Positions 3,001 through 49,586 of a stretch of DNA of 64,000 nt are shown piece by piece. The DNA comes from Mesostigma viride. Its lineage: Eukaryota > Streptophyta > Mesostigmatophyceae > Mesostigmatales > Mesostigmataceae. The stretch spans positions 130,043 through 194,042 of the forward strand of contig RPFO01000089.1 in assembly GCA_009746045.1 (NCBI GenBank), given 5' to 3'. Position 1 is the first letter of the stretch. Every line of letters begins with the position of its first letter. The position numbers and the translations under genes are program-made. The notes under the pieces were generated by a model. That model ran no database searches, was not told the origin of the DNA, and was given only the letters and a program-made list of their open reading frames with translations.

Positions 3001-6000
3001 CACACGTCATCCAACGCATGGCATCATGATCACACGTCATCCAACGCATGGCATCATGATCACACGTCATCCAACGCATGGCATCATGATCACACGTCAT
3101 CCAACGCATGGCATCATGATCACACGTCATCCAACGCATGGCATCATGATCACACGTCATCCAACGCATGGCATCATGATCACACGTCATCCAACGCATG
3201 GCATCATGATCACACGTCATCCAACGCATGGCATCATGATCACACGTCATCCAACGCATGGCATCATGATCACACGTCATCCAACGCATGGCATCATGAT
3301 CACACGTCATCCAACGCATGGCATCATGATCACACGTCATCCAACGCATGGCATCATGATCACACGTCATCCAACGCATGGCATCATGATCACACGTCAT
3401 CCAACGCATGGCATCATGATCACACGTCATCCAACGCATGGCATCATGATCACACGTCATCCAACGCATGGCATCATGATCACACGTCATCCAACGCATG
3501 GCATCATGATCACACGTCATCCAACGCATGGCATCATGATCACACGTCATCCAACGCATGGCATCATGATCACACGTCATCCAACGCATGGCATCATGAT
3601 CACACGTCATCCAACGCATGGCATCATGATCACACGTCATCCAACGCATGGCATCATGATCACACGTCATCCAACGCATGGCATCATGATCACACGTCAT
3701 CCAACGCATGGCATCATGATCACACGTCATCCAACGCATGGCATCATGATCACACGTCATCCAACGCATGGCATCATGATCACACGTCATCCAACGCATG
3801 GCATCATGATCACACGTCATCCAACGCATGGCATCATGATCACACGTCATCCAACGCATGGCATCATGATCACACGTCATCCAACGCATGGCATCATGAT
3901 CACACGTCATCCAACGCATGGCATCATGATCACACGTCATCCAACGCATGGCATCATGATCACACGTCATCCAACGCATGGCATCATGATCACACGTCAT
4001 CCATCATGATCACACGTCATCCAACGCATGGCATCATGATCACACGTCATCCAACGCATGGCATCATGATCACACGTCATCCAACGCATGGCATCATGAT
4101 CACACGTCATCCAACGCATGGCATCATGATCACACGTCATCCAACGCATGGCATCATGATCACACGTCATCCAACGCATGGCATCATGATCACACGTCAT
4201 CCAACGCATGGCATCATGATCACACGTCATCCAACGCATGGCATCATGATCACACGTCATCCAACGCATGGCATCATGATCACACGTCATCCAACGCATG
4301 GCATCATGATCACACGTCATCCAACGCATGGCATCATGATCACACGTCATCCAACGCATGGCATCATGATCACACGTCATCCAACGCATGGCATCATGAT
4401 CACACGTCATCCAACGCATGGCATCATGATCACACGTCATCCAACGCATGGCATCATGATCACACGTCATCCAACGCATGGCATCATGATCACACGTCAT
4501 CCAACGCATGGCATCATGATCACACGTCATCCAACGCATGGCATCATGATCACACGTCATCCAACGCATGGCATCATGATCACACGTCATCCAACGCATG
4601 GCATCATGATCACACGTCATCCAACGCATGGCATCATGATCACACGTCATCCAACGCATGGCATCATGATCACACGTCATCCAACGCATGGCATCATGAT
4701 CACACGTCATCCAACGCATGGCATCATGATCACACGTCATCCAACGCATGGCATCATGATCACACGTCATCCAACGCATGGCATCATGATCACACGTCAT
4801 CCAACGCATGGCATCATGATCACACGTCATCCAACGCATGGCATCATGATCACACGTCATCCAACGCATGGCATCATGATCACACGTCATCCAACGCATG
4901 GCATCATGATCACACGTCATCCAACGCATGGCATCATGATCACACGTCATCCAACGCATGGCATCATGATCACACGTCATCCAACGCATGGCATCATGAT
5001 CACACGTCATCCAACGCATGGCATCATGATCACACGTCATCCAACGCATGGCATCATGATCACACGTCATCCAACGCATGGCATCATGATCACACGTCAT
5101 CCAACGCATGGCATCATGATCACACGTCATCCAACGCATGGCATCATGATCACACGTCATCCAACGCATGGCATCATGATCACACGTCATCCAACGCATG
5201 GCATCATGATCACACGTCATCCATCATGATCACACGTCATCCAACGCATGGCATCATGATCACACGTCATCCAACGCATGGCATCATGATCACACGTCAT
5301 CCAACGCATGGCATCATGATCACACGTCATCCAACGCATGGCATCATGATCACACGTCATCCAACGCATGGCATCATGATCACACGTCATCCAACGCATG
5401 GCATCATGATCACACGTCATCCAACGCATGGCATCATGATCACACGTCATCCAACGCATGGCATCATGATCACACGTCATCCAACGCATGGCATCATGAT
5501 CACACGTCATCCAACGCATGGCATCATGATCACACGTCATCCAACGCATGGCATCATGATCACACGTCATCCAACGCATGGCATCATGATCACACGTCAT
5601 CCAACGCATGGCATCATGATCACACGTCATCCAACGCATGGCATCATGATCACACGTCATCCAACGCATGGCATCATGATCACACGTCATCCAACGCATG
5701 GCATCATGATCACACGTCATCCAACGCATGGCATCATGATCACACGTCATCCAACGCATGGCATCATGATCACACGTCATCCAACGCATGGCATCATGAT
5801 CACACGTCATCCATCATGATCACACGTCATCCAACGCATGGCATCATGATCACACGTCATCCAACGCATGGCATCATGATCACACGTCATCCAACGCATG
5901 GCATCATGATCACACGTCATCCAACGCATGGCATCATGATCACACGTCATCCAACGCATGGCATCATGATCACACGTCATCCAACGCATGGCATCATGAT

Positions 6001-8108
6001 CACACGTCATCCAACGCATGGCATCATGATCACACGTCATCCAACGCATGGCATCATGATCACACGTCATCCAACGCATGGCATCATGATCACACGTCAT
6101 CCAACGCATGGCATCATGATCACACGTCATCCAACGCATGGCATCATGATCACACGTCATCCAACGCATGGCATCATGATCACACGTCATCCAACGCATG
6201 GCATCATGATCACACGTCATCCAACGCATGGCATCATGATCACACGTCATCCAACGCATGGCATCATGATCACACGTCATCCAACGCATGGCATCATGAT
6301 CACACGTCATCCAACGCATGGCATCATGATCACACGTCATCCATCATGATCACACGTCATCCAACGCATGGCATCATGATCACACGTCATCCAACGCATG
6401 GCATCATGATCACACGTCATCCAACGCATGGCATCATGATCACACGTCATCCAACGCATGGCATCATGATCACACGTCATCCAACGCATGGCATCATGAT
6501 CACACGTCATCCAACGCATGGCATCATGATCACACGTCATCCAACGCATGGCATCATGATCACACGTCATCCAACGCATGGCATCATGATCACACGTCAT
6601 CCATCATGATCACACGTCATCCAACGCATGGCATCATGATCACACGTCATCCAACGCATGGCATCATGATCACACGTCATCCAACGCATGGCATCATGAT
6701 CACACGTCATCCAACGCATGGCATCATGATCACACGTCATCCAACGCATGGCATCATGATCACACGTCATCCAACGCATGGCATCATGATCACACGTCAT
6801 CCAACGCATGGCATCATGATCACACGTCATCCAACGCATGGCATCATGATCACACGTCATCCAACGCATGGCATCATGATCACACGTCATCCAACGCATG
6901 GCATCATGATCACACGTCATCCAACGCATGGCATCATGATCACACGTCATCCAACGCATGGCATCATGATCACACGTCATCCAACGCATGGCATCATGAT
7001 CACACGTCATCCAACGCATGGCATCATGATCACACGTCATCCAACGCATGGCATCATGATCACACGTCATCCAACGCATGGCATCATGATCACACGTCAT
7101 CCAACGCATGGCATCATGATCACACGTCATCCAACGCATGGCATCATGATCACACGTCATCCAACGCATGGCATCATGATCACACGTCATCCAACGCATG
7201 GCATCATGATCACACGTCATCCAACGCATGGCATCATGATCACACGTCATCCAACGCATGGCATCATGATCACACGTCATCCAACGCATGGCATCATGAT
7301 CACACGTCATCCAACGCATGGCATCATGATCACACGTCATCCAACGCATGGCATCATGATCACACGTCATCCAACGCATGGCATCATGATCACACGTCAT
7401 CCAACGCATGGCATCATGATCACACGTCATCCAACGCATGGCATCATGATCACACGTCATCCAACGCATGGCATCATGATCACACGTCATCCAACGCATG
7501 GCATCATGATCACACGTCATCCAACGCATGGCATCATGATCACACGTCATCCAACGCATGGCATCATGATCACACGTCATCCAACGCATGGCATCATGAT
7601 CACACGTCATCCAACGCATGGCATCATGATCACACGTCATCCAACGCATGGCATCATGATCACACGCCATCCAACGCATGGCATCATGATCACACGTCAT
7701 CCAACGCATGGCATCATGATCACACGTCATCCAACGCATGGCATCATGATCACACGTCATCCAACGCATGGCATCATCCAACGCATGGCATCATGATCAC
7801 ACGTCATCCAACGCATGGCATCATGATCACACGTCATCCAACGCATGGCATCATGATCACACGTCATCCAACGCATGGCATCATGATCACACGTCATCCA
7901 ACGCATGGCATCATGATCACACGTCATCCAGCGCATGGCATCATGATCACACGTCATCCAGCGCATGGCATCATGATCACACGTCATCCAACGCATGGCA
8001 TCATGATCACACGTCATCCAACGCTTGGCGTCATGATCACACGTCATCCAACGCATGGCATCATGATCACACGTCATCCAACGCATGGCGTCATGATCAC
8101 TATACAGC
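1..8108. repeat. 30-bp tandem satellite array
   Basis: About 270 head-to-tail copies of a 30-bp unit whose core reads catcatgatcacacgtcatc, followed by caacgcatgg. The array continues off the left edge. From 1 to about 7660 I see no base substitutions, only shortened units: an 8-bp loss near 808, a shortened unit near 1815, five identical 20-bp units (about 4001, 5221, 5811, 6341, 6601) and a 13-bp loss near 7776. Substitutions appear only in the last 450 bp. Because 30 is divisible by three and the unit lacks stops in several frames, long open frames run on both strands. These are a consequence of periodicity, not genes. Likely centromeric, pericentromeric or subtelomeric satellite; the location is inference. 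Confidence 0.97.
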
Positions 8109-20441: not shown

Positions 20442-21058
20442 AGTTAACGTAAAGGATTTACGTTAGATGGATAGAGATTGTTACGCTCTTTCCAACGGCA
20501 CCTTGAACGCCTCATTTGGTTAAGGAACGTAAAAGTTATTACGTTTCCTAGGCTGTGCCGACAGTACCCGGCGCGCCACTGTGGGCGCGTACGGACACAG
20601 GATGTACAAGTGTCACTTTGATAGTCCGCAGGACGTTGACAGGACTTGTACAGGACTTGATGGTCAATTGATAGGTAGGCGTGCTGTAGCGCGCCAGGAC
20701 CTATGAGACAATTGATGCTGAGTAGTGTACGGATAGGTCCACAGGACTAGCCGTATGGACAATTGATAGATCTGCGCGCCAAAGGCGTGCCAGAGTCTGT
20801 GTAATCAATTGATTGACAGTTCAGCTGTGACAGTGCAGCTGAATACTTGGACGCGTCCCTAACAACCTATATGTGTGACTTGGTCGCACCGGGACGCTAG
20901 TTCTTGCGTGCACGTTCTCTTGGCACTGCGACCCTGTCGCCTGTGCTGCGTGCAGTCTTGGAAGTGACGTGACTTACGTCTGTGTTTCCTTGTTATTAAT
21001 AAAGGCAACTTCCTGCAAGAACCATGGCGGAATTCGTGGCATTCACTCTCATACAACT
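20442..21058 (+). repeat. 5' LTR of the copia-like retrotransposon
   Basis: 617 bp, almost identical to 27649-28269: I see one substitution (C/T near 20939) and a 4-bp indel near 20694. It begins AGTTAACGTAAAGG and ends CATACAACT, that is AGTT...AACT rather than the usual TG...CA. An AATAAA lies near 20997. An ATG in a good context (accATGG, 21024) opens a frame that runs out of the LTR into the internal region. Confidence 0.9.
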
Positions 21059-21704
21059 CGTATTACACCTCGTTCCAAATATGCCAAATTCTGAAGAATT
21101 CCGAATTCCCGGCGATGAGGAGATAGCCGCTCCGCCGGCTGATCCTTTACCAAGACCGGCTGCGCCGTCGTGGCAGCAATTGCTTGACGAGGTCACGATA
21201 TCGCTCGACGAACTTCATCGTCGGCAGCGCGCAGTTCTTCCATTGCTCGGGGATTTCCCCGAGGACCCCGATTTGCCGCAGCTGGTGCCGGCTATACGCG
21301 CGCCGTTGGACCAGATTCGCAACATTTTATCGCAATTTACGGTCCAGGTGCGGGGAGGTTTGCGGTCGGTGAACGAGGTCACCACTGCCATCGAGGAGCT
21401 GGACAACGCCATCTCTTCGCTCACCGGCTACCAGAGAAACTTACAAAACTGGGCATCGCTACGCACGGGGGGCGCGCCGGCGGTGTCGACAAACTTATTT
21501 CAAGACCTCGCGTTGCTGTCGCTGCTCACACGCGGCGTACGCAGTCGCGAACGCCAGGTTCTCATTAACCTGGTGGCTTTTCTCGCATCTCTGCGAGAGT
21601 GGATTCCCGCAGGTTGGGAATTGTTGTCCATTTTTACTCATCCTCTGCGCCTCGTCGCGCGTCGGCGCGCGCAACTTTCGCGACGGGGAGCACGCCGGTT
21701 TTGA
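21024..21704 (+). CDS. Unrecognised leader protein starting inside the LTR
   Basis: 226 codons from the ATG at 21024, the only good initiation context in this region, to TGA 21702-21704. The first 11 residues are LTR-encoded. The protein has a Pro-rich N-terminal segment, a helical middle region (about residues 50-140, with LDELHRRQRAVLPLL and IRAPLDQIRNILSQF), a hydrophobic helix-rich segment and an Arg-rich C-terminus (RLVARRRAQLSRRGARRF). No zinc, protease or membrane motif is clear. Its GC-rich codon use differs from the gag and pol that follow. It may be an extra gag-like coat protein, an accessory factor, or captured host sequence. It is not part of gag, which has its own ATG 257 bp downstream. 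Confidence 0.55.
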   Translation: MAEFVAFTLIQLVLHLVPNMPNSEEFRIPGDEEIAAPPADPLPRPAAPSWQQLLDEVTISLDELHRRQRAVLPLLGDFPEDPDLPQLVPAIRAPLDQIRNILSQFTVQVRGGLRSVNEVTTAIEELDNAISSLTGYQRNLQNWASLRTGGAPAVSTNLFQDLALLSLLTRGVRSRERQVLINLVAFLASLREWIPAGWELLSIFTHPLRLVARRRAQLSRRGARRF

Positions 21705-21960
21705 TACATACCGGCGCAGGTCCGGCACACACGCCGGATATGGAGGATCCTGAGTTTACCTATGAGTACTGCGATTTCCGGGGCCTCGACTACTGAGTCG
21801 GCCAATTTTTTTTCCAGTGCTCGTCGACATTTTGTCGAATTTTCAGCGGCGATTCGCGGGGGCGGCGGCGACACCGGCGCAGGCGGCAGTTGCGACAATT
21901 TTTGTACATACTTTATTCTGCTGCTTTGCTGAGGTGTTTTTGAATAGCTTGTAGTGCAGA
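21705..21960. other. Leader between the first frame and gag
   Basis: About 255 bp without a convincing gene. No tRNA-complementary primer-binding site of standard TGG type is seen directly after the 5' LTR at 21059. The nearest TGG-like candidate is atggcagacgggcgcc at 21961, which also overlaps the gag ATG. Confidence 0.35.
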
Positions 21961-23076
21961 ATGGCAGACGGGCGCCGTAGCAAAGGTGCCCCAGCCAGTG
22001 GGAATAATGGTGGTGCTGGTAGTGGGACCGCTCACGTAGATGACGTGGGGGTTACCGGAGAGATTACCAACATTCATCACAATAATAATAATGCACAAGC
22101 TGTTCTTGGCTTATGATCTCACTACCCAGGGTTTGCTTATTGTGAATCAACTGCAACCTGTCACGTCAGACACAAAGCCCAAGCAGGCTGAGGAGTTTGT
22201 GGAGGGGCTAGAGGGGTTTCCAAGTTTGTACGGTGGTACAAACTATTACCAGATCTGGATAGGTAGCCAGACTTTTGGCAAGTGTACAGATCAGATCAAG
22301 GACCTCACTAGAGAGTGTAAGAAGGCCAACAAGGCCTGGTCCAGCTACGTGGCAGAGTTAAAGGAGCTGCTAGAGGATCAGAGGAAGAAAGTGGGGATCC
22401 ATTGGCAGGATAAATACCAGGGGTGGGAGGTCAAGGGAGACCTGATCCAGAACTTCCTTAACTATTGTAAAATGGTTGAGGAGGGCAGGGCTCACGGCTT
22501 TAATGTTGCTGACAACATAGCCCTGACAAACTGGCTCAAGGTTTCTGGGCTGGACAAGGCTACACGTGGCTCCTTAAAGGTCATGTGTGCCCCACACTCA
22601 ACCCTCAAGGCCTACAAGGTCATAATCAAACAAGCACTCGAGGCAGAGGAGCTGTTTGAGGGTGGAGTGCCAGCAGTGAAGGCTACCCAGGCAGGTGGGC
22701 GTACCCAGGGTGGCTCCAAATCGTCTGAGGCTGACAGAAGCCAAGGAGGGCGTAGGGGCAACCACAACAAGCGAAGGCCAATCATTCACCCGACCCTGAC
22801 GGGAGGTCACACTCCAAGTCGGTGTTCAGGCGGGTGGGTGGTCAGCCCAAGCAGGGCAACGCGTCTGACAACGGGGGCAGTGGCCAGGGCAAGTCAAAGA
22901 TACAATGCTACCTGTGCAAGGGGTGGGGGCACATCAAGAAGGAGTGTCCCAGCTTCAAGAAGTCCCAGGGCCAGGGCAGCAACAAGAACAACAACAACAA
23001 CAAGAAGAACAACAACAAGTCCCAGGCAGGCCAGCCTTCAAAGGGCAGTCAGCAAGAAGACAACAAGGAGCAGTGA
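21961..23076 (+). pseudogene. gag: gag of the copia-like element, with frameshifts
   Basis: Starts MADGRRSKGAPASGNNGGAG at 21961. The frame shifts inside an AAT microsatellite near 22085, continues in another frame (residues such as NYYQIWIGSQTFGKCTDQ, a helical capsid-like region to about 22680) and returns to the first frame near 22800. It ends with a CCHC zinc knuckle (CYLCKGWGHIKKEC, C-x2-C-x4-H-x4-C, near 22910-22950) and an Asn/Lys-rich tail, stop at 23076. Gag forms the particle and binds RNA. The two shifts cancel each other. They may be real decay or assembly errors, given the nearly identical LTRs. Confidence 0.75.
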
Positions 23077-23215
23077 CTGTCTGAGGCAACCCCTACACAC
23101 CTTAATTCACCCAGGGGGAGGCCAGGTGCTCCAATGCAGATTTTATATCTGGGCAACAAGAGGGTGATCTCCAGGTTCAGGTGGCCCCAGGTCACCTGGA
23201 GAGGTACAGGTTCCT

Positions 23216-24600
23216 ATGAAGACGTCCTTGACAGCTGATGCAGCTGTAAGAATGTCTGACCCCATGCATCCTCGTGCTGGGCACGAGGGTGGACCTCTCA
23301 TTTTGAGAGAAACCAATGTACAACCACAGAGGGGTGTGAAGGCCTCTGGTGGTATGCATGTGGTCCCTGCTGGCGGTCCAGGTGTTGGGCATGAGCAGGG
23401 TGACTCAGGCTCTGAGTCAGAACAGGATGGAAGTCAGCATGGTGATGCTGGACAACCTGACAGCACAGTCCTGACTGTGCCAGGGACTGCTTCCTCTGTG
23501 TACCAGGAGTTGGGTGCCCGAATCCACAACATGTTTGGGCATGCCACTTCTCTGTCAAACAACTTTGCCTTCCGTATGGGCAGGGCACCCCTTCTCAAGG
23601 CGTGTCAGCAAGCTGCCTCACGGTGTAAGTGCCAGTTGTCCTCCAACAAGCCCAGGAAATCACATGCCAAAGCTCTACCTCAGAGCATTGGTGATCTGCA
23701 GTGTGATATCCAACACATCAGGGGCATGCAACTGTTGGTGTGCGTGGACAGGTACACGAAATACAAGGTGCTGGAGCATTTACCTTCTATGAAGAACAGG
23801 TACTTGCTGGCTGCCCTGCAGAATGTAAGAGCCAAGTTTCCTACCACAAGGATCCAGGTGGACATGCAGTTTCAGCATCTCAAGGGTGATCCTACCCTTC
23901 CTGAGTTGCTGGTTACACCTAGGGAGGCTCATGGGCAGCAGGGTGCTATCGAGAGGGCAATCCAGGAGGTCAAGAAATTGATCATCTCTGAAGACTGGGT
24001 ACCCTTGTCTGCACCTGCACTTGTCAGGAGTGCATGGCTGAGGAACGTGGAGCAGCAGCTGAACAGCAGGGTTAACTTCTACTATGATGGAGTTGCTGTC
24101 AGCCCAATGGGTCTATATCATGGCCTGTGCCCACCACATGTGCTGGAGGGCTGGAAACATGCTGCACATGTCACCTTTGCCAAGCTGAGGGAGAAGGACC
24201 GGGGTTGGAAGATGCTGGAGCCACAAGTGGGTCAGAAGGTCCTAGCTTGGAAGGAACCTAGCCTTTATGGCAAACGTGGTAGCTGGAGTCCTGGGGTGGT
24301 TACCCAGGTTGATGAAGCTAGCCACGCATGCTTGGTCAGCATGGAGGACGAACCAAAGCATGTACACCGGCTGAGTTGGTCATATGTCAAGCCTAACCTG
24401 ATGAATGAGGGCAGTCAGGCACAAGGCTCACAGGATCTGCAGGATTTTCAGGTCCCAAGTGACATCACTGACGCAACGACCACATCTGTTGCAGGGGAAT
24501 CTGTCAGCCCTGGCCAGGTTGCAGAGGTACTTGTTGAACAGGCTGCAAGGTCAACAGCTGGGGAGTCAACTGTCAAGCCCAAGGCACTAACCAAGCCCAG
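23216..24600 (+). CDS. pol: Integrase region of pol
   Basis: An open frame follows gag in a different phase. After about 90 unrecognised residues comes an integrase: an HHCC-like zinc region (H...FGH, then C..C within ACQQAASRCKC), a catalytic core with Asp in LQCDIQHI, the VDRYTKYKVLEHL strand, Asp in IQVDMQFQH and Glu in GQQGAIERAIQEVKKLI, then a C-terminal part with VLAWKEPSLYGKRGSWSPG. The second Asp and the Glu are 30 positions apart rather than the usual 36. It inserts the cDNA into the chromosome, consistent with the 5-bp duplication. The frame stays open to 24937 and runs into the protease-like segment. Confidence 0.8.
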
Positions 24601-24639
24601 GGGGACAAGTTTGGCTGGATTGATTGGGGCTCTACAAAG

Positions 24640-24990
24640 AGCCAAGAAGCAGCCCAAGGTAGCCAAGCTCAGGTGGCATGGCAATCTGGGGCTGGACACT
24701 GCCTTAGAGGTAGACACTAATTCTCAGGTTTCCATCATTGGGACCAGGGCTGCAGCAGGGTACAGCATGACTGAACCCAGCTATCAGTTTGTGTCTGACT
24801 TCAGTGGCGGGGTACACGTGAAGGTACTGGGTGAGGTATCATTCCTATCCTTGGACAGGACACTGCTTTTTGTGTCTTGGAGGGCTATCAAGGACCTGCT
24901 CTTCTGGGGCAGAATTTCCTATGCCAGGATGGGGTAGTGATCACGTCCTCTCTCCTGACTAAGGAAGGGGCTGGTCAGGTCCCACTGATT
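24640..24990 (+). CDS. Protease-like segment between integrase and RT
   Basis: The frame continues after the integrase with LEVDTNSQVSIIGTRAAAG, a strong match in layout to the retroviral aspartic-protease motif (hydrophobic-DTG-S-x-x-S), here with Asn in place of Gly. About 60 residues later, after a one-base frameshift near 24880, LLGQNFLCQDGVVI matches the second signature (ILG.dFL). Retroviral-type proteases cut the gag-pol polyprotein. In Ty1/copia the protease precedes integrase, and in gypsy it precedes RT with integrase last, so this order is unusual. The DTG glycine change may mean it is inactive. Confidence 0.55.
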
Positions 24991-25089
24991 AATTTCAGGA
25001 CCACTCACCTATCACGTGCAGTAACCAGGACGGTTAAGCGTGTGCAAGTGTGCCAGGGGCAGGAGCCCTTGGTTGATGACCTCATATTG

Positions 25090-26040
25090 CCAGCTGCTAG
25101 TCATCCAAGCAGTTTGGGCATTGGTCCTCACTCACTTGCTGGACACAGCCCTATCAACTACCAAGGCCTGGTGAAGCTCATGTCCTCTCCCATTATGTGT
25201 CCCCAGGTCACACTGGGTCTGATTAAATCTGGGGAGGACTGGATCTCCAAGAAATGCGTGGAACCTGTCAATGACCTGCCTCCTGCACGACGTCTACTCA
25301 AGCTCAAGTTTGTCATCAAGATGAAGGAGGTGGACGGGGTCAAGGTACCACATGTCAGGCCAGTGCTGAATGAGTTCAAGGGTACTGGTGAGTGCACTGC
25401 TGAGGAGTTGTATACCCCTGGCATGCTGCATGACACTTGGAGGCTGCTGCTGTGTGTATTTCTAGGCCTTCTCAACAAGGGCTTGGACTATGGCTCAGTG
25501 GTGGTAGACTTCAAGAGGGCATTTCTGGAGGGGATGCAGATGTGGCACAGGAAAAGTGGGAGGGCAAGACGCCTTTCTATGTTAGGGTGCCTGCTGTATG
25601 GAAAAGGGACATCCACACGGAGTTCCTTAAAATCCTCAAGGGCCTGGAGGGCCTGAGGTCAAGTCCAATAATCTGGAGGGAGACTCTCAACCGTTTCCTG
25701 AAGGAGCATTGCAACTTGAAGGTCTCTCCTGTAGACCCCTGTCTGTTTCTGGGGCAATGGGAAGGCCTGCCAGTGTATGCTTCGCTGCACGGGGATGACC
25801 TACATCTGATAGCTCCCACGTCGTGGCTTAAGGAGCTGATCTCCATCATTAAGTCCAAGTTTCCTCTGGGTAGGGAGCAATGGCAGGTGGAGAATGAGCC
25901 TCTGCTGTTTGTGGGCATGGAGGCCACACTGGTGAAGAAGGGGGGGAGTGGCGTATGCTGCTGGTGGGGGGCAATGATTATCAAGAGACCCTCATTAGCA
26001 AGCTTCCTCCAACCATCACACAGGCACTGTGTCCCATGGT
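25090..26040 (+). pseudogene. pol: Copia-type reverse transcriptase, two frames
   Basis: First frame to about 25560: LLKLKFVIKMKEVDGVKVPH, then RPVLNEFKGTGE, ELYTPGMLHDTWRLLL and VVVDFKRAFLEG, the fingers and the first catalytic-Asp motif of copia RT. A one-base shift near 25560-25640 leads to GLRSSPIIWRETLNRFLKEH, VDPCLFLGQWEG, SLHGDDLHLIAPTSWLKELI and the G-containing LLFVGMEATL. The catalytic Y-x-DD is represented by H-G-DD. A second shift falls in the G-run near 25937. All shifts have the same sign (one base missing). RT copies the element RNA into DNA. Confidence 0.8.
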
Positions 26041-26698
26041 GAGGGGCATGGTTGCTTGGGTGGCAGGCATTTCCAGGCCAGACCTTATGGTCATAGCCAG
26101 GTTGCCTGATGACATGCTGGTGGAGCTAGGGTCTGCCAAGGTGGCTGATCAGGTCAGGGCTTCATCTGGCATTCTGTTGTCTGCAGTGGATTTATCACAA
26201 CCCATTTGCATGGAGCTGTATGTGGATAGCTCAATGGACAGCAGGCAGGTCTCCAAGGTCAGGGGCAGGGCTGCAGGGCTCTTTGTGCTCAGACAGGAAG
26301 GCCTGGGGAGTTTGGTGAGCTGGTTTAGTCGCCTGCACAAACGGGTGGCTGTCAGCAGTGATGTGGCAGAATGCAGGGCTATTTGTGAAGGCATTCACAC
26401 AAGCCTTTATCTGAAGGAGTTGCTTCATCAGATGACTTCTAACACTCCTTGGCCACTTCAGGTTACCACTCTTCTAAAAACAGACTCCATGGGGATGGTG
26501 CAGTTTGTGCACAGGCAGATGGCCAGAAGTAGGGACTTGGATTATCTCCTTCTTAAGGAGTTGTCCTCCTTGGCCAATATTGAGCATATCCCTGGGGTTG
26601 ACAATCCTGCTGATGCTTTGACCAAGCTAGTGCAGAAGGCAGCAGTGCAATACAAGGTTCTTCAGTCTCTGATGGACCCATCTCAGCAAGCTGTCTAA
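25955..26698 (+). CDS. pol: Copia-type RNase H domain and pol C-terminus
   Basis: The frame runs to TAA 26696-26698. It begins with the copia region after RT (AWVAGISRPDLMVIARLPDD) and then RNase H: the first acidic motif in MELYVDSSMDSRQVSKVRGR, SWFSRLHKRVAVSSDVAECR with the conserved Glu, KTDSMGMVQFV with the third Asp, RSRDLDYLLLKEL, and IPGVDNPADALTKL, the usual end of copia pol. RNase H removes the RNA template. The open frame starts within the end of RT; the likely true start is by polyprotein readthrough, not the internal ATG. Confidence 0.85.
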   Translation: MLLVGGNDYQETLISKLPPTITQALCPMVRGMVAWVAGISRPDLMVIARLPDDMLVELGSAKVADQVRASSGILLSAVDLSQPICMELYVDSSMDSRQVSKVRGRAAGLFVLRQEGLGSLVSWFSRLHKRVAVSSDVAECRAICEGIHTSLYLKELLHQMTSNTPWPLQVTTLLKTDSMGMVQFVHRQMARSRDLDYLLLKELSSLANIEHIPGVDNPADALTKLVQKAAVQYKVLQSLMDPSQQAV

Positions 26699-27630
26699 GC
26701 TGGTGCCTGGTTATAGGGCATTGGAGAGCAGATTGTGTGGTAGTGTCAGCATTGTGACTGGCATAATACCTGTATTTTAGTCTGTACTAAGGCTCATGGA
26801 CCATGGTACACTCACTCTGATTTTAATCAGGATACAGCCAGGTTTTGGCTGGGGTTCATGCTGTTGACTACACAAGGTTGACAGGTCCATTACAGACCAT
26901 GTATTCTATTTTAAAAGAAATGTATATTTGTACATACTTCTCACAATGGTCTGGGAACCTTTATTCTGGGGTTTATAGGGCGGGGTTCGATTCCCTGGTA
27001 TTATGTTTCTACAAGCTGGCCTGTTCAGGTGTTTGCCTGTTCAGACTTCCCTAGTTCCCCAGGGCAGGATTTAATTGTTGCCTATGTGTTTCATTTTGTC
27101 ATTTGTTTGCTGTGGCAGTTTACCATCTGGCAAGTAGACGGGCGCCGTAAGACGGGCGCCAATAGACCCCTGTTGAGAGAATGACAGGCAAACTATTGTA
27201 ATACGCCTTACTTTGTCAAGTGGTATTTTAATTGTCATGGATTTATTGTACTTATATTGAATATGTACTGGGTTTTATGGGATTAGTATCTGGGATTAAT
27301 GTAACTCACCGCCAGAAGGTCATTGTACTGGAGGCTCTACCGAGGTGATGGGATTAATTCCTGGAGAAGACCTCATAGAATTAACCTGTATGTATTTAAT
27401 TTTGTGTGCTTCTAATATCTGGTGGTACTCTGTAATGCCACTTCCATAGGTTTTTATCCATTTCTCATGGAATGGTTTTCCCTGTGGCAGATCTGTTTCT
27501 TTTCCAGTTCCTTAAAAGAAAAGGCTGGGGGAATGGCAATGGCCATTAAAGACATCTGTTCAAGCTTCAAGCTGGAGTGAAGGACATTTCAAGCTACTTC
27601 AAGGGTCCCTGGCAGGGGATGTGATCCCTA
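26699..27630. other. 3' internal non-coding region of the copia-like element
   Basis: About 930 bp without a recognisable frame. It contains gacgggcgccgta at 27137-27149 and gacgggcgcc at 27151-27160, a motif also present at the gag start (21967-21979). Confidence 0.5.
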
Positions 27631-27648
27631 AAGAAAAGAAGGGATTGG
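27631..27648 (+). promoter_or_regulatory. Polypurine tract
   Basis: aaagaaaagaaggga directly before the 3' LTR (with attgg in between), the expected position for the plus-strand DNA synthesis primer. Confidence 0.65.
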
Positions 27649-28269
27649 AGTTAACGTAAAGGATTTACGTTAGATGGATAGAGATTGTTACGCTCTTTCC
27701 AACGGCACCTTGAACGCCTCATTTGGTTAAGGAACGTAAAAGTTATTACGTTTCCTAGGCTGTGCCGACAGTACCCGGCGCGCCACTGTGGGCGCGTACG
27801 GACACAGGATGTACAAGTGTCACTTTGATAGTCCGCAGGACGTTGACAGGACTTGTACAGGACTTGATGGTCAATTGATAGGTAGGCGTGCTGCATGTAG
27901 CGCGCCAGGACCTATGAGACAATTGATGCTGAGTAGTGTACGGATAGGTCCACAGGACTAGCCGTATGGACAATTGATAGATCTGCGCGCCAAAGGCGTG
28001 CCAGAGTCTGTGTAATCAATTGATTGACAGTTCAGCTGTGACAGTGCAGCTGAATACTTGGACGCGTCCCTAACAACCTATATGTGTGACTTGGTCGCAC
28101 CGGGACGCTAGTTCTTGCGTGCACGTTCTCTTGGCACTGCGACCCTGTTGCCTGTGCTGCGTGCAGTCTTGGAAGTGACGTGACTTACGTCTGTGTTTCC
28201 TTGTTATTAATAAAGGCAACTTCCTGCAAGAACCATGGCGGAATTCGTGGCATTCACTCTCATACAACT
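27649..28269 (+). repeat. 3' LTR of the copia-like retrotransposon
   Basis: 621 bp, AGTTAACG...ACAACT, nearly identical to the 5' LTR, followed by the AAAGA duplication at 28270-28274. The LTR-borne ATG is present here too, but downstream it reads into flanking DNA and stops. Confidence 0.9.
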
Positions 28270-34618: not shown

Positions 34619-34926
34619 GGCCTAGCGCAGCCGCCAGGCTGCGTTGCGTCGAGGAGCGTTTGCTCGTCATATATATTGCGTAATAGCTTCGGAAGTTTAT
34701 ATCAGCATGTGCGTCTTAGAAAGATGAAGCGATTGTGATATTCACAGCCGAATTCGGTGCTCAAACGTGAAAGTTATGAGCTCCGCCGTCAGCCATCATG
34801 GCTATGTACCTCGTGGCTTGTGTCTTGTGGGTGACGCCTGAGATACCCTTGTTCTTCCAGAGGCGACCCTGTTGGCGACGTCTTCCTGCTAGACTTGCTC
34901 AGGCCTCTTGGTAACTGCACTTCTAT
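34619..34926. other. 5' flank of the ORF1 copy; no gene
   Basis: A TATA-like catatatattg lies near 34668, upstream of the minus-strand ORF1 start. No other feature is seen. TCTAT at 34922-34926 is the left duplication of the next element. Confidence 0.4.
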
Positions 34927-35475
34927 AGTTAGGTGAAATAGTGCCGGAACCTTTTTGCCGTTGGGGCAAATCGGTCCGGAACACTATTTTGCCCAGATTC
35001 ACCACTTCCAAGCACCCAAGTTAATTCGGCCGAATTAACTTGGGTGCTCGGAAGTGGTGAATCCGGGCAAAATAGTGTTCCGAACCGATTTGCCCCGACG
35101 GCAAAAAGGTTCCGGCACTATTTCACCTAACTATATAAGACCTGTGCACCTTGGAGGTCAGGGGTTCGAAACCTGCCAGAGACAGTTCCGGCGCAATGTC
35201 ATTTGCGTGCACTAGCCTAGGCGGTTGTCTCCAGGTCTATTCGACTCCCCCTCCACGAGGCCAGGTTTTAGTTAGGTGAAATAGTGCCGGAACCTTTTTG
35301 CCGTTGGGGCAAATCGGTCCGGAACACTATTTTGCCCGGATTCACCACTTCCGAGCACCCAAGTTAATTCGGCCGAATTAACTTGGGTGCTCGGAAGTGG
35401 TGATTCCGGGCAAAATAGTGTTCCGGACCGATTTGCCCCAACGGCAAAAAGGTTCCGGCACTATTTCACCTAACT
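34927..35475. mobile_element. Palindromic-terminal-repeat element, two-repeat form
   Basis: Structure: a 206-bp near-perfect palindrome (34927-35132, centred at 35029/35030), a 137-bp spacer (35133-35269), and a second 206-bp palindrome (35270-35475, centre 35372/35373). The outer ends are AGTTAGG and CCTAACT. TCTAT is duplicated directly outside (34922-34926 and 35476-35480), so the whole composite inserted as a unit. As each end is its own inverse, the repeats are direct and inverted at once. The size, 5-bp duplication and AGTT...AACT ends point to a miniature LTR-type element related to the copia-like family, but that is inference. No coding capacity. Confidence 0.8.
35133..35269 (+). other. 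Spacer with tRNA-like half, B-box and A-box-like motifs
   Basis: aggtcaggggttcgaaacct resembles a tRNA variable loop plus T arm; GGTTCGAAACC at 35163-35173 fits the RNA polymerase III B box. TAGCCTAGGCGG near 35213 resembles an A box but lies on the wrong side of that B box. The same spacer occurs inverted at 45254-45390 and direct at 45598-45732. Not a complete tRNA gene as I read it. Confidence 0.45.
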
Positions 35476-35489
35476 TCTATCTGTGGCGC

Positions 35490-38290: not shown

Positions 38291-40594
38291 ATCACAGGGG
38301 GAGGGGACACCCCTAAAGGGCACTTTTCTGGAAACCATACCTATGCATGTGCTAAAAATCCAATGATGATTGGGGACCATAAATATGATTTTAAAAAAAA
38401 ATTTCCAGCCACTTGGGGGTGGTACTAGCCCCCACCATACACCGGTTACGCGCTAAAAATAGAAAAAGACGCTATTTTAGTCACATTTTTCCTAGGACAA
38501 TGGGCAAACATATTGGGATCAAATATTGGGATCAAATCATATATTCCCGCATAGTTCCCCCACTTTTGAGAAAGCCTGCCTAATTTTGAGCACAAAATAA
38601 TGATGTTTAGACACATTGATGGATTTTCCCGCAAAAAGGGTCCTTTTTAAAACAAAAACAAAATAAAACAAATCATAAACACATGCAATAGTGCCAAATC
38701 ATATATTCCCAAATACTAGAGACTCAGGGGGGGACATGCAGCCCCAAATTTTCAGGTCATTCTGACAAGCGCAGCCCTATTTGATGGATATTCCTAGATT
38801 GCCACCTGTGACGAAGCTAAGGGAGGTTTTAGCTAGTATTTAACCACACTAACACCCCTTTATACATCTAAGCCTCATGAAAACTGGCCAAACCACATAC
38901 TACCATTCTCTGCACATATGGTACCTCCTATGTTCAAGGTTTGACGCCATTCTGACAAGAACTGCCCAAGTTACAACCATTCCAAGACGGCCACCCATGT
39001 AGACGCTACAAGGAAATTAGAGTAACCATTTAGCCACACTAGCACCTCCTTCTTCATCAAAGACATCTGCAAACTGACCAAAGCACACATAATCAACTCT
39101 TGCACGCTGACGGCAACGCATGCTCAATGTGGGGGGTCATTGCGACAAGAACTGCTCAAGTTGATGGGTTTCCTATATGACCACATGACAAGGCGCTAAG
39201 GACCACTCAGTAAGTTAGTAACCCCACAGTGCCATCCAACATGCACCAAAACCATGCAGAGTATGTTTACAAAGTACAAAGGGGTGGCCACGCACCTCAT
39301 ATGTCTTCATCATCCCTCCAGCATGGCCAGCCTTGTAAATATGTGCATAGCCTTGACGATGGTAGCCCTAACATGCCTAAGCAGCATTTCCTATGTTTCT
39401 CCCAGGTTAGAGTGTAAGGTTGATGCCAACCAAGCTAATCAACACAACAACACCTCCTAAACTGTCCTCCCCGGCATGGATGACAAACTGGGACTATGGA
39501 GGGCAAGGAACCAAGTAAGAACATGGTATATATAGCTTGCATGCAGTCATGCATGTCAACCATGGTTGGCTCAGCACATTGTAGTCTTGTCACATCATCA
39601 TAACAAAGGAAAGCTCAAACAACCATTGGTGCCAGCTATCTACATGCAGTCACACAAATGCAATATCTCCAACATCATCATCACTATAACACTTCCATCC
39701 CTGCACGATAAAATGCAAAGAAACCATTGGCGGCCCTTCACCGCATGAGCGCTGTGATGCCGCTGCGGCCTGCGAGAGAGGGTGCGTCACTCTCAAACAA
39801 CAAGAAGCGTCCATACGCACAACATCCTTGCCAGAACACGTTTTATGAAATGCCTTATACCTTCCCGAAGAGCTATAGGCTGCGACTGAAGCGGCCCTGA
39901 TCACGACATCAACGAAAACAATCTAAAGCTGCCAGGTATTCGACAACACAACGGCAAGCGACGGCGAGCTAGCTGGCGGAAACTGCCCAAAAAGAACGCA
40001 AAAAACCTCGAATTAACGATGAGCTCATAGAAGAAAGCACCGATAGCAGATAACGTTCGCGACAAATCTGTACCTTGCCCTCGTAAATCCCTCGCCCAGG
40101 CGCGCAACAACAGCCGTTCTTCCATGGACAGGTCAGACACGCACTGCGCAGGTCTGAACAATTACTTACCGATAATGGCCGAAAATATGGCAAAAAGCAC
40201 CAGCTCGGTTTAGAACTCGATGCAACCGATATTAATGCCTGCTTCAAGGTCAGAACAGCCCCCAAAACCGCGATTTTACAGCCGCTATCATGAATTCTAT
40301 TTCATTCCGCGCGACCAAAAAATTCAGATTACCCCCCATGCCGATGGCATAAAAAAACAACAGCGATATTGTAAACCAGCTGATTTCCGCCACAAACAAA
40401 CATCATAAACTCATCTCCTTTTAGATTCGAGTAAAATTTTTGCATTTTGCCTGCCCTAGTGTGGTAGTTTCGCCTGAACGCAGTCGCCATGGCCACTTCC
40501 GCAAGGGGTGCGCGCACCGTGCACGTGAAATTTGTGACCTTCGGCTCCGGCGCGAATTTTTTGGCGCCAAAAAATTCGGGGGTGTCCCGTCCCC
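38291..40594 (-). mobile_element. Non-autonomous TTAA (Kolobok-like) element, minus orientation
   Basis: The right boundary is gtcccgtcccc|TTAA at 40595-40598, the inverse of the ggggacggga terminus. The perfect GGCGCC-centred palindrome lies at 40554-40577. The left boundary is set by comparison with the unoccupied copy at 43105, where gcgaatctgccttaaacgtgg is continuous; here ggggacaccccta follows gcgaatcac, so the left TTAA has been lost. The subterminal phrase tagcgtctttttctattttt (minus strand, about 38460) also occurs near the right end of the Kolobok element at 57945. It contains three diverged 190-bp repeats (38758, 38948, 39137). No transposase. Confidence 0.7.
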
Positions 40595-44549: not shown

Positions 44550-46020
44550 CGTTACAGTAAGTAATTATTCAGGCCTGCGCTGTGCGTGTCTGACCTAGCT
44601 TTCCATGGAAGAACGGCCGTTGTTGTGCGCCTGGGCGAGGGATTTACGAGGGCAAGGTACAGACTTGTGGCGAACGTATTGCACTATAAGTTCTTTCTTC
44701 TACACCGTTCGAAGTCTTTTGCGTTCTTTTGGGGCAGTTTCTGCCACTGAGCTAGCTCGCCGTTTCTTGCCGTCGTGTTGTGGCAATACCTGGCAGCTTT
44801 AGATTGTTTTCGTTGATGTTGTGGTCAGGAACGCTTCAGTCGCAGCCCATGGCTTCTCGGGAACGTTCAAGGGGTTACATAAAATGTGTTTTGGCAAGGA
44901 TGAACATTGTGCGTATGGAGGCTTCTTGTAGTGTGAGAGTGACGCACCCTTTCTTCGCAGCGGCATCACAGCACTCAGAAGCTGAACGGCCGCGAATGCT
45001 TTCTTTAGATTTTATCGTTCAAGGAAGGATGGTTATGGTGATGGCCAAGTTATGTGAAATAGTGCTGGAACCTTTTTGCCGTTGGGGCAAATTGGTCCGG
45101 AACACTATTTTGCCCGGAATCACCACTTCCGAGCACCCAAGTTAATTCGGCCGAATTAACTTGGGTGCTCGGAAGTGGTGATTCCGGGCAAAATAGTGTT
45201 CCGGACCAATTTGCCCCAACGGCAAAAAGGTTCCAGCACTATTTCACCTAACTAAAACCTGGCCCCGTGGAGGGGGAGTCGAATAGACCTGCATGGAGAC
45301 AACCGCCTAGGCTAGTGCACGCAAATGATATTGCGCCGGAACTGTCTCTGGCAGGTTTCGAACCCCTGACCTCCAAGGTGCACAGGTCTTAGTTAGGTGA
45401 AATAGTGCCGGAACCTTTAATGCCGTTGGGGCAAATCGGTCCGGAACACTATTTTGCCCGGAATCACCACTTCCGAGCACCCAAGTTAATTCGGCCGAAT
45501 TAACTTGGGTGCTCGGAAGTGGTGATTCCGGGCAAAATAGTGTTCCGGACCGATTTGCCCCAACGGCAAAAAGGTTCCGGCACTATTTCACCTAACTAAG
45601 ACCTGTGCACCTTGGAGGTCAGGGGTTCGAAACCTGCCAGAGACAGTTCCGGCGCAATATCATTTGCGTGCACTAGCCTAGGCGGTTGTCTCCAGGTCTA
45701 TTCGACTCCCCCTCCACGCGGGGCCAGGTTTTAGTTAGGTGAAATAGTGCCGGAACCTTTTTGCCGTTGGGGCAAATCGGTCCGGAACACTATTTTGCCC
45801 GGAATCACCACTTCCGAGCACCCAAGTTAATTCGGCCGAATTAACTTGGGTGCTCGGAAGTGGTGATTCCGGGCAAAATAGTGTTCCGGACCGATTTGCC
45901 CCAACGGCAAAAAGGTTCCGGCACTATTTCACCTAACTGGCCATACTGGAGATATTGCATTTGTGTGACTGCATGTAGATAGCTGCCAATATTGGTTTAT
46001 TTGAGCTTTCCCATGTTATG
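44550..46020 (+). mobile_element. Internal part of a TTAA element, interrupted by a palindromic element
   Basis: 44560-45042 matches the inverse of 39680-40180 (phrases such as ccatggaagaacgg, gcgcctgggcgagggattta, gtgagagtgacgcaccc). After the palindromic insertion it continues with atactggagatattgcattt, as at 39650-39670. Neither TTAA terminus is present here, so it is a fragment. Confidence 0.65.
45048..45938. mobile_element. Palindromic-terminal-repeat element, three-repeat form
   Basis: Palindrome (45048-45253), spacer inverted (45254-45390), palindrome (45391-45597), spacer direct (45598-45732), palindrome (45733-45938). GGCCA is duplicated outside (45043-45047 and 45939-45943), so this 891-bp composite also inserted, or was formed, within a single target duplication. 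The related TTAA-element copy at 39640-39680 lacks the insertion. The two spacers are in opposite orientation. No coding. Confidence 0.82.
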
Positions 46021-46818: not shown

Positions 46819-47562
46819 TGTCAGAAACCGGGGCTCGGAGGAAAGATCTTTTGCCTGTTATGACCCAGATATTGCACAAGTGTATGGAAAAGACTTCTTG
46901 TATTAAAATACGTTTACTGAGAGTGGAAAACACGGTGCGGCCAACACTGGGCGCAGTCTGCCATAGCCAACACTGGGCCAGGGCAAATGACAATGCCAAC
47001 ACTGGGCAGGGTCACACGACCAACACTGGGTCGGGGCCACACACGGCTCGGCAAGCAAACAACTCTAGGCACACAAAGTAGTGGCGGCTAATGCATTATG
47101 CACCGTTGATTTACATCTGACGGCACTGCAGCTTAGCGTCTCTACAACCACGGAAAGAACACTAGATAATAACGACTTTGCAGCCTGTAATCTATTGTCC
47201 ACATCATGGTACATTGTGTGTGTGGTCTGATAGGCTCAAAGTCCTATCGCCTCCAGGGCGGCACCACAAACTGCGGACCTGATCTGATCCGGAGAGAGCC
47301 GATGTAAATTACGGCACCTGTAACGGTGCTGACAGGTAACGCTTGCTGTATTCCGAGCAACATCATTCGGATTTTAGTACACTCAAACATTGTATATGAT
47401 ATTAAACTAGTCAACGACCTGTGGGTGCAATTAATAGGGATGCAAACCCAACAACAAGTCGTGTAAATAAACACCTAGCTGACGACGTCAATTTTCCCCG
47501 CATATAATGCGTGATAACATAATGCGTGACAAAAGTAGAGAAACATCGCTAGATATTTGACA
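46819..47562 (-). repeat. LTR (3' LTR in minus orientation)
   Basis: 744 bp with inverted ends TGTCA/TGACA. It contains a motif ccaacactggg repeated five times (about 46940-47035). Confidence 0.9.
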
Positions 47563-47592
47563 CACCCCCATACTGCATGTCACGTATTCCGG

Positions 47593-48480
47593 CTACTCAA
47601 TGAAAAAACCAGCAGGAACATCTGCCACGTCGTCAGCCAGTGGCTCGCCGTCCATGGTGAAGTGCGCCTCAGGTTTCTTGGACTTGTTCTCCGCCTTCTT
47701 GGACCAGCAGCGATCCTCAGTGTGACCGGTACGGTGGCAGTGCTTGCAGGTCAGCACTTTCCCAACCTTGGTGAGGAAGACTGATTCGTCGATAGTACCC
47801 GCACAGTGGGGGCAGGCAGCAGTATGATACACTGGTGCACTGGAATCTGAGCTGCCAGCTTGGGCCGCGCGGTGCACACGCAGATGGTCGTCCACTTTCA
47901 GGACGGCGGTCTTGTAGTCTTTCCACGTCAAGTCGGGGGGAAGGTTGTACGCCGCCAGGACGGGGCCATACTGGGCAGGAAGTCTGCGGCGGTGTGATGT
48001 CACCAGGATGGAATCATGGAGTTTATTGTTGCTTAATTTATTATATTGCAGGTACAATCGTTCGGTGAGATTGACATTTGCAGGAACAGAATCCATGGGA
48101 ATCTGCTCAGCTGACAGCAGTTCCTCAAGTGTCGCGGCCTGATGGGTGGATGTCGTTTCGTCACGTCCATAGACGTCAACCAGGACGGTCCACGCCTCGT
48201 GCATATACTTGTTGGGGGCCGTAGCGGCATGCAGTAGTAGCGCGTTGCCGTCGAGGCCAGCAATCAGGGCAGCGTAACCAATTTTTTGCTGCTTTACCAC
48301 GATCGGATCCTTTCCAGCTAGTACATCTGAATATCCGAGGGCGTCGAATTGCCCTTCCGCCTTGATTCGGAATCCGGTGAATTTCTTGGGGTCGCTCCCA
48401 TCAAAGTTGAGATTCTTGAGAGCACTAAGAACGCTGCTCTCCTTGACTTCTCGTGCCACAGCTGGCGCACCTCCCGACAT
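47593..48480 (-). CDS. gag: Gag polyprotein with copia-type (UBN2-like) capsid and CCHC knuckle
   Basis: 295 codons on the minus strand, ATG at 48480, stop at 47593. The N-terminal part has KNLNFDGSDPKKFTGFRIKA, the copia gag signature of a short motif before a helical domain. The middle contains HEAWTVLVDVYGRDETTSTH and LTERLYLQYNKLSNN, typical of UBN2-type gag. CPHC and then CKHCHRTGHTEDRC (C-x2-C-x4-H-x4-C) near residues 230-265 form the zinc region for RNA binding. The frame is intact, unlike most others in the window. It ends 30 bp before the 3' LTR, so there is no space for pol. Confidence 0.85.
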   Translation of the reverse strand: MSGGAPAVAREVKESSVLSALKNLNFDGSDPKKFTGFRIKAEGQFDALGYSDVLAGKDPIVVKQQKIGYAALIAGLDGNALLLHAATAPNKYMHEAWTVLVDVYGRDETTSTHQAATLEELLSAEQIPMDSVPANVNLTERLYLQYNKLSNNKLHDSILVTSHRRRLPAQYGPVLAAYNLPPDLTWKDYKTAVLKVDDHLRVHRAAQAGSSDSSAPVYHTAACPHCAGTIDESVFLTKVGKVLTCKHCHRTGHTEDRCWSKKAENKSKKPEAHFTMDGEPLADDVADVPAGFFIE

Positions 48481-48826
48481 GTTCTTGATTGCGTTGGAGA
48501 TTTGTAATGTGAAGTAAAGTGTGATTTAATCTCTCCAGAGATACTGCGTTGTTGTCGAGCAGATCCTGTAGATTTCTGATTGAAAAGTCTGGAAGTTCGC
48601 TGAAACACACACAGTTGAAAAATTCTTGTCGAATGCCACGCAGGAGCCAGCGGCAGTAGGCAGATTCAGGAAACACGCCCGGGAAGATGTCTTCAACTTG
48701 GGCAAAAAGCAGATTTGCTCTTGCGAGGTAGTCTGGGCAAGATTCTTCGGGAAATTGAAAAAGCTCAATTCCAGATCTCAGGTTGCGGTCGTTGGGAATT
48801 GGAAAATATGGGTTCATAGGCATCAC
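48425..48826 (-). CDS. Upstream frame overlapping gag, unknown
   Basis: 133 codons from the ATG at 48826, just inside the primer-binding site, to 48425. It overlaps the first 56 bp of gag in another frame. Residues such as GIELFQFPEESCPDYLARAN and YCRWLLRGIRQEFFNCVCF suggest a folded helical domain reminiscent of retroelement capsids, but I do not recognise a family. It could be the first ORF of a bicistronic gag, or the N-terminal half of a gag broken by a frameshift. Confidence 0.45.
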   Translation of the reverse strand: MMPMNPYFPIPNDRNLRSGIELFQFPEESCPDYLARANLLFAQVEDIFPGVFPESAYCRWLLRGIRQEFFNCVCFSELPDFSIRNLQDLLDNNAVSLERLNHTLLHITNLQRNQEHVGRCASCGTRSQGEQRS

Positions 48827-48842
48827 TCGCTACTCGATACCA
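48827..48842 (-). promoter_or_regulatory. Primer-binding site
   Basis: Minus strand tggtatcgagtagcg directly adjoining the LTR end, resembling TGGTATC-type sites complementary to the 3' end of initiator methionine tRNA. Confidence 0.6.
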
Positions 48843-49586
48843 TGTCAGAAACCGGGGCTCGGAGGAAAGATCTTTTGCCTGTTATGACCCAGATATTGCA
48901 CAAGTGTATGGAAAAGACTTCTTGTATTAAAATACGTTTACTGAGAGTGGAAAACACGGTGCGGCCAACACTGGGCGCAGTCTACCATAGCCAACACTGG
49001 GCCAGGGCAAATGACAATGCCAACACTGGGCAGGGTCACACGACCAACACTGGGTCGGGGCCACACACGGCTCGGCAAGCAAACAACTCTAGGCACACAA
49101 AGTAGTGGCGGCTAATGCATTATGCACCGTTGATTTACATCTGACGGCACTGCAGCTTAGCGTCTCTACAACCACGGAAAGAACACTAGATAATAACGAC
49201 TTTGCAGCCTGTAATCTATTGTCCACATCATGGTACATTGTGTGTGTGGTCTGATAGGCTCAAAGTCCTATCGCCTCCAGGGCGGCACCACAAACTGCGG
49301 ACCTGATCTGATCCGGAGAGAGCCGATGTAAATTACGGCACCTGTAACGGTGCTGACAGGTAACGCTTGCTGTATTCCGAGCAACATCATTCGGATTTTA
49401 GTACACTCAAACATTGTATATGATATTAAACTAGTCAACGACCTGTGGGTGCAATTAATAGGGATGCAAACCCAACAACAAGTCGTGTAAATAAACACCT
49501 AGCTGACGACGTCAATTTTCCCCGCATATAATGCGTGATAACATAATGCGTGACAAAAGTAGAGAAACATCGCTAGATATTTGACA
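48843..49586 (-). repeat. LTR (5' LTR in minus orientation)
   Basis: 744 bp, nearly identical to 46819-47562 (G/A difference at about 48983), TGTCAG...TTGACA, followed by GCACG. Confidence 0.9.

Follow-up and report, generated by a model that had tools for sequence, protein, structure and literature searches.

The described systems closest to the element presented here are the TRIMs with a pol III promoter and the foldback elements; it sits between the two, and neither fits it fully. Throughout, P stands for a palindrome, S for a spacer and S' for the same spacer inverted. Helenus, equal to TRIMp3 (Kojima 2024, PMC10886601), resembles the element, in the excerpts of its description used here, by its tiny non-autonomous form, two terminal repeats, short inner part, tRNA-like A and B boxes and 5-bp duplications. 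According to the same excerpts of PMC10886601 the tRNA-like part of Helenus lies inside the LTR, with PBS and PPT present, whereas here the boxes straddle P and S and no PPT is seen, P is palindromic and the full form is P-S'-P-S-P. Neither "palindrom" nor "inverted" was found in its text. Cassandra is similar in its pol III promoter within the terminal repeats, its LTR-spacer arrays and its LTRs predicted to be self-complementary (PMC7215508, in excerpts), but its promoter is of the 5S type and the arrays are described there as tandem, whereas here the promoter signals are tRNA-type, P is almost perfectly palindromic, and the spacers on the two sides of a central P point in opposite directions.

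Foldback elements and MITEs such as Galileo and FB have long inverted repeats that can fold back on each other, duplications of fixed length and short gene-free copies, and as in these the inverted repeats make up most of the element; here each end is at once a complete palindrome and a direct repeat, in a nested three-palindrome design with promoter boxes. Parvoviruses have palindromic termini and monomer and inverted-dimer forms, whereas the present elements have 5-bp duplications and are dispersed nuclear repeats. Bacterial REP/BIME sequences are, in the portion of their literature covered, dispersed and possibly non-autonomous palindromes; they are far smaller, bacterial and linked to TnpA-REP. 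We know of no target duplications for them. In the literature searched, with most subscription papers and Repbase outside the search, no described family with such a design was found, and the searches found no published description of a palindromic build combined with tRNA-like promoter signals; "palindrom" was not found in the excerpts of PMC3532108, PMC4717578 and PMC12859917. The element joins two things known separately, pol III-promoter miniature elements and foldback DNA.

The window, the whole stretch of 64,000 nucleotides of Mesostigma viride analysed here (contig RPFO01000089.1), contains a 549-base unit at 34927-35475 in which two 206-bp palindromes surround a 137-bp spacer (P-S-P). 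The palindromes are zero-loop inverted repeats with 103-bp arms, 96.1% (P1) and 99.0% (P2) identical to their own reverse complements and 97.6% identical to each other. A sequence-only reading had described these palindromes, the spacer and an outer TCTAT duplication, and all are present where it placed them; its point that the terminal repeats are direct and inverted simultaneously is borne out, as P reads alike both ways. Chance is excluded by two such inverted repeats with an exact outer duplication and by many further copies flanked by duplications of this length. The features of the unit are as follows.

34922-34926, no strand: target-site duplication TCTAT, left copy
34927-35132, no strand: P1, 206-bp palindrome, arms 34927-35029 and 35030-35132
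35099-35109, plus strand: A-box-like CGGCAAAAAGG near the end of P1, putative promoter part, first base off consensus
35133-35269, plus strand: spacer S, 137 bp, B-box end to the left
35163-35173, plus strand: B box GGTTCGAAACC inside S, matching GGTTCGANNCC
35266-35269, plus strand: TTTT at the S/P border, candidate pol III terminator
35270-35475, no strand: P2, 206-bp palindrome, 99% self-complementary
35476-35480, no strand: target-site duplication TCTAT, right copy

The unit is best read, from its sequence, as a short copy of a non-autonomous mobile element with the full form P-S'-P-S-P. The P-S-P design given in the sequence-only reading is incomplete; the longer regular form has an inverted spacer and a further palindrome. 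This form is seen in a second unit of the window, at 45048-45938, with the duplication GGCCA, which the sequence-only reading had passed over. Its features, together with two element-free paralogues of insertion flanks, are the following.

45043-45047, no strand: target-site duplication GGCCA, left copy
45048-45253, no strand: P1 of the second unit, with 19C>T and 50C>T mirrored between its arms
45254-45390, minus strand: inverted spacer S', minus-strand B box at 45354-45364
45391-45597, no strand: central P
45598-45732, plus strand: spacer S, B box at 45624-45634
45733-45938, no strand: P3, 100% self-complementary
45939-45943, no strand: target-site duplication GGCCA, right copy
39582-40169, minus strand: diverged, element-free paralogue of the second-unit flanks, empty site near 39671-39679 (by eye)
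34700-34770, plus strand: element-free sequence paralogous to the flanks around a family-B insertion (C125:114781-115790)

Among the P copies of the second unit, 19C>T and 50C>T occur in P1 only, in both of its arms. The flanks of this unit match 39582-40169 with 82-89% identity, in two pieces. At 34700-34770 the sequence GATGA occurs singly, and GACGA stands on either side of the family-B insertion (by eye).

The home assembly (440 Mb, 2243 contigs) was searched with P, and all units formed by the best 40 of 427 candidates constitute the family-A set (30 units). Three P are present in 12 of these units, two in 10 and a solo P in 6; the remainder are one four-P unit (P S' P S P S P, on contig C1391) and one truncated unit. 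In some two-P units one P is shortened or broken. Elements end in AGTT...AACT. An exact 5-bp target-site duplication was found at 26 of the 30 units from these best 40 candidates, the others being L023 (one mismatch), L042 (altered ends), and L034 and one C1391 unit, which are truncated. Both C1391 units sit in a local tandem duplication; L024, L028 and L038 have some flank repeat sequence in common, yet carry different duplications. The sequence-only reading had taken the composite for a mobile element inserted as a whole, which is supported by the further copies with 5-bp duplications of their own; these lie outside the composite there too, and the claim survives. The P/S junction motif CCTAACTAARACCT occurs at 518+525 places in the genome, and its reversed control at 1+2.

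In family B the P is about 70% like the family-A P and the S is different (236 bp). The copy at L019:5733-6822 is 1090 bp long and 100% self-complementary. The best 40 of 680 candidates for full-length family-B palindromes are 100% identical over 206 bp and represent 16 sites, ten of them with three full P; at three more the spacings (828, 804) fit a shortened centre, as demonstrated for C402 (L084). All 12 testable family-B places of 15, at 10 distinct sites, have 5-bp duplications (10/10 for the first 10 units, at 8 distinct sites; of 5 further places 2 were testable, both with a duplication). The duplication CCCCC at L019 is ambiguous and lies outside this count. The genome also contains three exact family-B arms with an unmirrored centre. 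An old family-B copy (L066 135-254 and 2499-2620) is without both outer arms, each breaking near the P centre.

L068-L072 are further subfamilies. At L069 the duplication CCCCC is ambiguous, lying within a C run, and a scripted search of the flanks of L068, L070, L071 and L072 found no exact duplication. L071 (C36:568100-568710) is a P-S-P with inverted copies of host DNA on its two sides, the 31 flank bases at 1-31 being the exact reverse complement of those at 575-605; the arrangement suggests a snap-back event at the element. Family E (C998:594063-595016) has a P of 152 bp and an S of 249 bp, 954 bp in total, with the duplication AGATG. The best 40 of 433 candidates in the genome search for this family fall at 21 sites, at least 7 of them with three P, and 6 of 7 units have 5-bp duplications, that of C224 lying in a CCT repeat. 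The right flank of one family-E unit (C1912:2169335-2170288, L086) adjoins half an A-type P, from two bases past its centre. Family D is a single copy, a 78-bp palindrome unit with the duplication CAGAC.

Family E has little in common with A and B beyond short stretches at the two putative promoter boxes. The best match of E with A/B covers 22 bases at the B box in S (E 4e-5) and the next 20 bases at the A box in P (E 0.013); a 12-base S stretch is common to E and B (E 0.022). The best cross-family matches fall at the boxes, so that boxes, palindromic build and ends are the conserved features.

The consensus of the A box is TRGYNNANNNG and that of the B box GGTTCGANNCC. The B-box motif occurs 48 times in the 249,041 bases scanned for it, 47 times within S, mostly 24-29 bases off the P junction. 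An A-box-like stretch of the TGGCAAAAAGG type lies inside P about 60 bases ahead of the B box (CGGCAAAAAGG in family A); in family E TAGCTAAAAGG is found 76 bases before it. Departures of the A box from TRGYNNANNNG are an initial C in family A, G for Y in L068 and L069, where the A-box regular expression fails, and a length one base shorter in L070-L072. TTTT ends S at the far P. In every one of the 17 triples read (12/12 of family A, together with L019, L084, L068, L069 and family E) S turns its B-box end towards the central P, and the four-P C1391 unit keeps this polarity with one extra S in direct orientation. In a listed part of the 1043 junctions, 7 triples whose ends can be told apart show this polarity and none the opposite one (by eye), two of the seven being family-B units on contig C2 with mutually duplicated flanks, and irregular clusters such as C1:7358791 being omitted.

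The A-box-like stretch in P and the B box in S resemble, at the central P, a tRNA-type pol III promoter, and we infer transcription from the central P/S junctions. The Rfam tRNA model RF00005 straddles both central P/S junctions of L068 with 23.1 bits, below the gathering score of 29 (E 0.15, or 0.0054 for a search space of 141 bases); the acceptor and T stems are kept in this alignment and the other stems are not. RF00005 was listed in none of L069-L072, L017, L019, L032 and family E, and ARAGORN found zero tRNA genes in L017, L019, L026, L032 and L068-L072. Rfam miRNA and other matches were rejected, being below gathering, as expected from any hairpin. A SINE was also considered and rejected; boxes are present, but the duplications are fixed at 5 bp, the ends are AGTT...AACT and no tail was seen.

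The full form is itself a palindrome of 0.87-1.09 kb. Mismatched pairs over the whole unit number 0 in 1090 bp (one family-B copy), 0 in 954 (one family-E copy), 1 in 866 (L069) and 4-13 in seven others. In ten triples with three complete P, S' and S show 0-2 differences in nine and 6 in one, and the outer P are identical in four and different in six, partly via mirrored variants. The arms are identical in 25 of the 49 complete family-A P. Across these 49 P, 37 variants are mirrored between the arms and 62 are not; with shuffled partners the mirrored count averages 10.3 (maximum 18 in 1000), and without the commonest variant it is 17 against 1.3 (maximum 8), although the shuffle incompletely separates the shared ancestry of P types, which contributes to the mirrored count. 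P copies within one unit can carry different mirrored variants. Mirrored variants within a single P point to arm-to-arm copying inside it, which may proceed by hairpin repair or hairpin replication; the unmirrored variants, the larger class, fit later point mutations.

In A and B a single arm forms two hairpins, and folding of the left arm of C is barely above shuffles (z -1.2). In 12 arms, 94.2% of sub-hairpin cells are paired (slid controls 27-49%) and 24 cells show changes on both sides, where shuffles average 9.8 (0/500 as high), for pairs picked after the alignment was viewed. Two of the five arm-pairing measures are no better than shuffles: 5 pairs have changes on both sides (4.6 in shuffles), and there are 10 further pair types (9.3 in shuffles). 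The signal is mainly the split between A-like and B-like families, which means few independent events, and dimeric protein sites would be expected to give the same one.

The reading that we favour, held at about even confidence, is that of a non-autonomous, palindromic element moving at the DNA level, mobilised in trans by an enzyme with a 5-bp staggered cut and with its arms homogenised through hairpins. An integrase or transposase would cut with a 5-bp stagger and insert double-stranded element DNA; a candidate source of it would be a retroelement with AGTT...AACT ends, such as that at 20442-28269. The P arms may extrude into hairpin or cruciform structures; mismatch repair or copying between the arms would preserve the near-perfect mirror symmetry of each P and of the entire unit. 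The central P would drive two divergent tRNA-type pol III transcripts, via S' and S, and recombination between P copies would yield P-S-P and solo P. Movement at the DNA level is favoured because a triple would be an RNA hairpin of 430-545 bp, no purine tract was seen and the outer repeats often differ.

The strongest rival, which we consider rather unlikely, is a TRIM in which the solo P is a solo LTR and P-S-P the element, longer forms arising by recombination or by snap-back during reverse transcription. It would cover the direct repeats at the ends, the short interior, the 5-bp duplications, the solo repeats, which also carry duplications, and the tRNA-type boxes, and the AGTT/AACT ends are common to the copia-like LTR of the window. 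The excerpts used here offer precedents in Helenus, whose LTRs are tRNA-like and whose plant and fungal copies have 5-bp duplications (PMC10886601), in the predicted self-complementarity of Cassandra LTRs (PMC7215508) and in TRIMs of two green algae (PMC4717578). However, inspection showed no purine tract before P, where family A has CCAGGTTTT or ACAGGTCTT and the copia-like element AAAGAAAAGAAGGGATTGG, and no clear primer site was seen by eye, AAAACCTGGCC... standing on one strand. In the putative primer-site region TGG is found six bases in for A, L068, L069, L071 and L072, and TAG for B and L070 (by eye). In 6 of 10 compared triples the outer P are unlike, with mirrored variants accounting for part of the difference; the long hairpin of a triple would probably make a poor template, TTTT at the S/P border would tend to stop pol III transcripts ahead of the far P, and all 17 triples read have a single polarity. 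An LTR-like mechanism is doubtful.

An ordinary cut-and-paste foldback element or palindromic MITE, whose symmetry would reflect youth only and whose pol III boxes would be passengers, is improbable. The long inverted repeats, the fixed duplication length, spacers too short for genes and the identity of the best 40 of 680 full-length family-B palindromes suit it, but mirrored variants in single P copies require arm-to-arm copying, the two best matches with family E fall in box regions, and design and polarity recur from family to family. Still less probable is a rolling-hairpin replicon, in which P would be a hairpin terminus of the parvovirus type, P-S-P the monomer and P-S'-P-S-P the dimer, integrated afterwards. 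The occurrence of monomers and of inverted dimers built around the same end, paired sub-hairpins within arms and the exact inverted duplication of the 31-base host flank on two sides of L071 agree with it; parvovirus integration is not known to leave fixed 5-bp duplications, which counts against it. Inverted dimers are a familiar type of artefact, but an origin of the units in inverted-dimer reads during sequencing or assembly is hardly credible given site-specific exact 5-bp duplications, old diverged copies and empty paralogous sites.

Beyond the favoured reading of a DNA-level element moved in trans, we tentatively raise the possibility that the elements form a separate class, built as inverted dimers of a tRNA-promoter unit whose mirror would be kept as one hairpin arm templates the other in each round, with the central P acting as a pol III promoter in both directions and the outer P as integrase ends. 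The very different families A, B, E and D have the design wholly or partly, which would argue that it is selected in its own right. Chromosomes are generally considered a poor place for long perfect palindromes, which tend to be unstable there. A genome with more than 1000 P/S junctions nonetheless keeps near-identical, cleanly inserted palindromes of 0.9-1.1 kb, and the system is a natural assay for palindrome replication and arm homogenisation. If the mover were a retroelement integrase, such enzymes could insert DNA unlikely to be made by normal reverse transcription.

No transposase, integrase or same-ended autonomous partner was found in the stretches examined and a few genome queries, and an autonomous partner with the same ends was absent from 238,727 bases scanned. 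The long spacers of L066 and L067 were rejected as such partners, the first holding a nested 5'-truncated LINE (RVT_1) and the second a nested 1.76-kb stretch between overlapping halves of S. The LINE family of L066 is very abundant (6465 genome candidates, e.g., C2:5649861-5651402); among the best 84 of these most are 99% identical, with open frames.

The window also contains, at 20442-28269, a copia-like element with the duplication AAAGA and LTR ends AGTT...AACT instead of TG...CA; its RVT_2 match (E 0.0013) is below the Pfam cut-off. The proposed resemblance of the unit to this element stands for the AGTTA/AACT ends and the 5-bp duplication, which are common to both, but BLAST matches of P and S to 20442-28269 are at chance level and kinship of either was rejected. 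The shared ends and duplication length amount only to a lead for the mover. Positions 1-8100 of the window hold a 30-bp satellite with more than 260 copies and 97% matches. At 46819-49586 a pair of 744-bp repeats (99.9% identical, TGTCAG...TTGACA), with GCACG outside both sides, encloses an open frame of 310 amino acids with a zinc-ribbon-like stretch.
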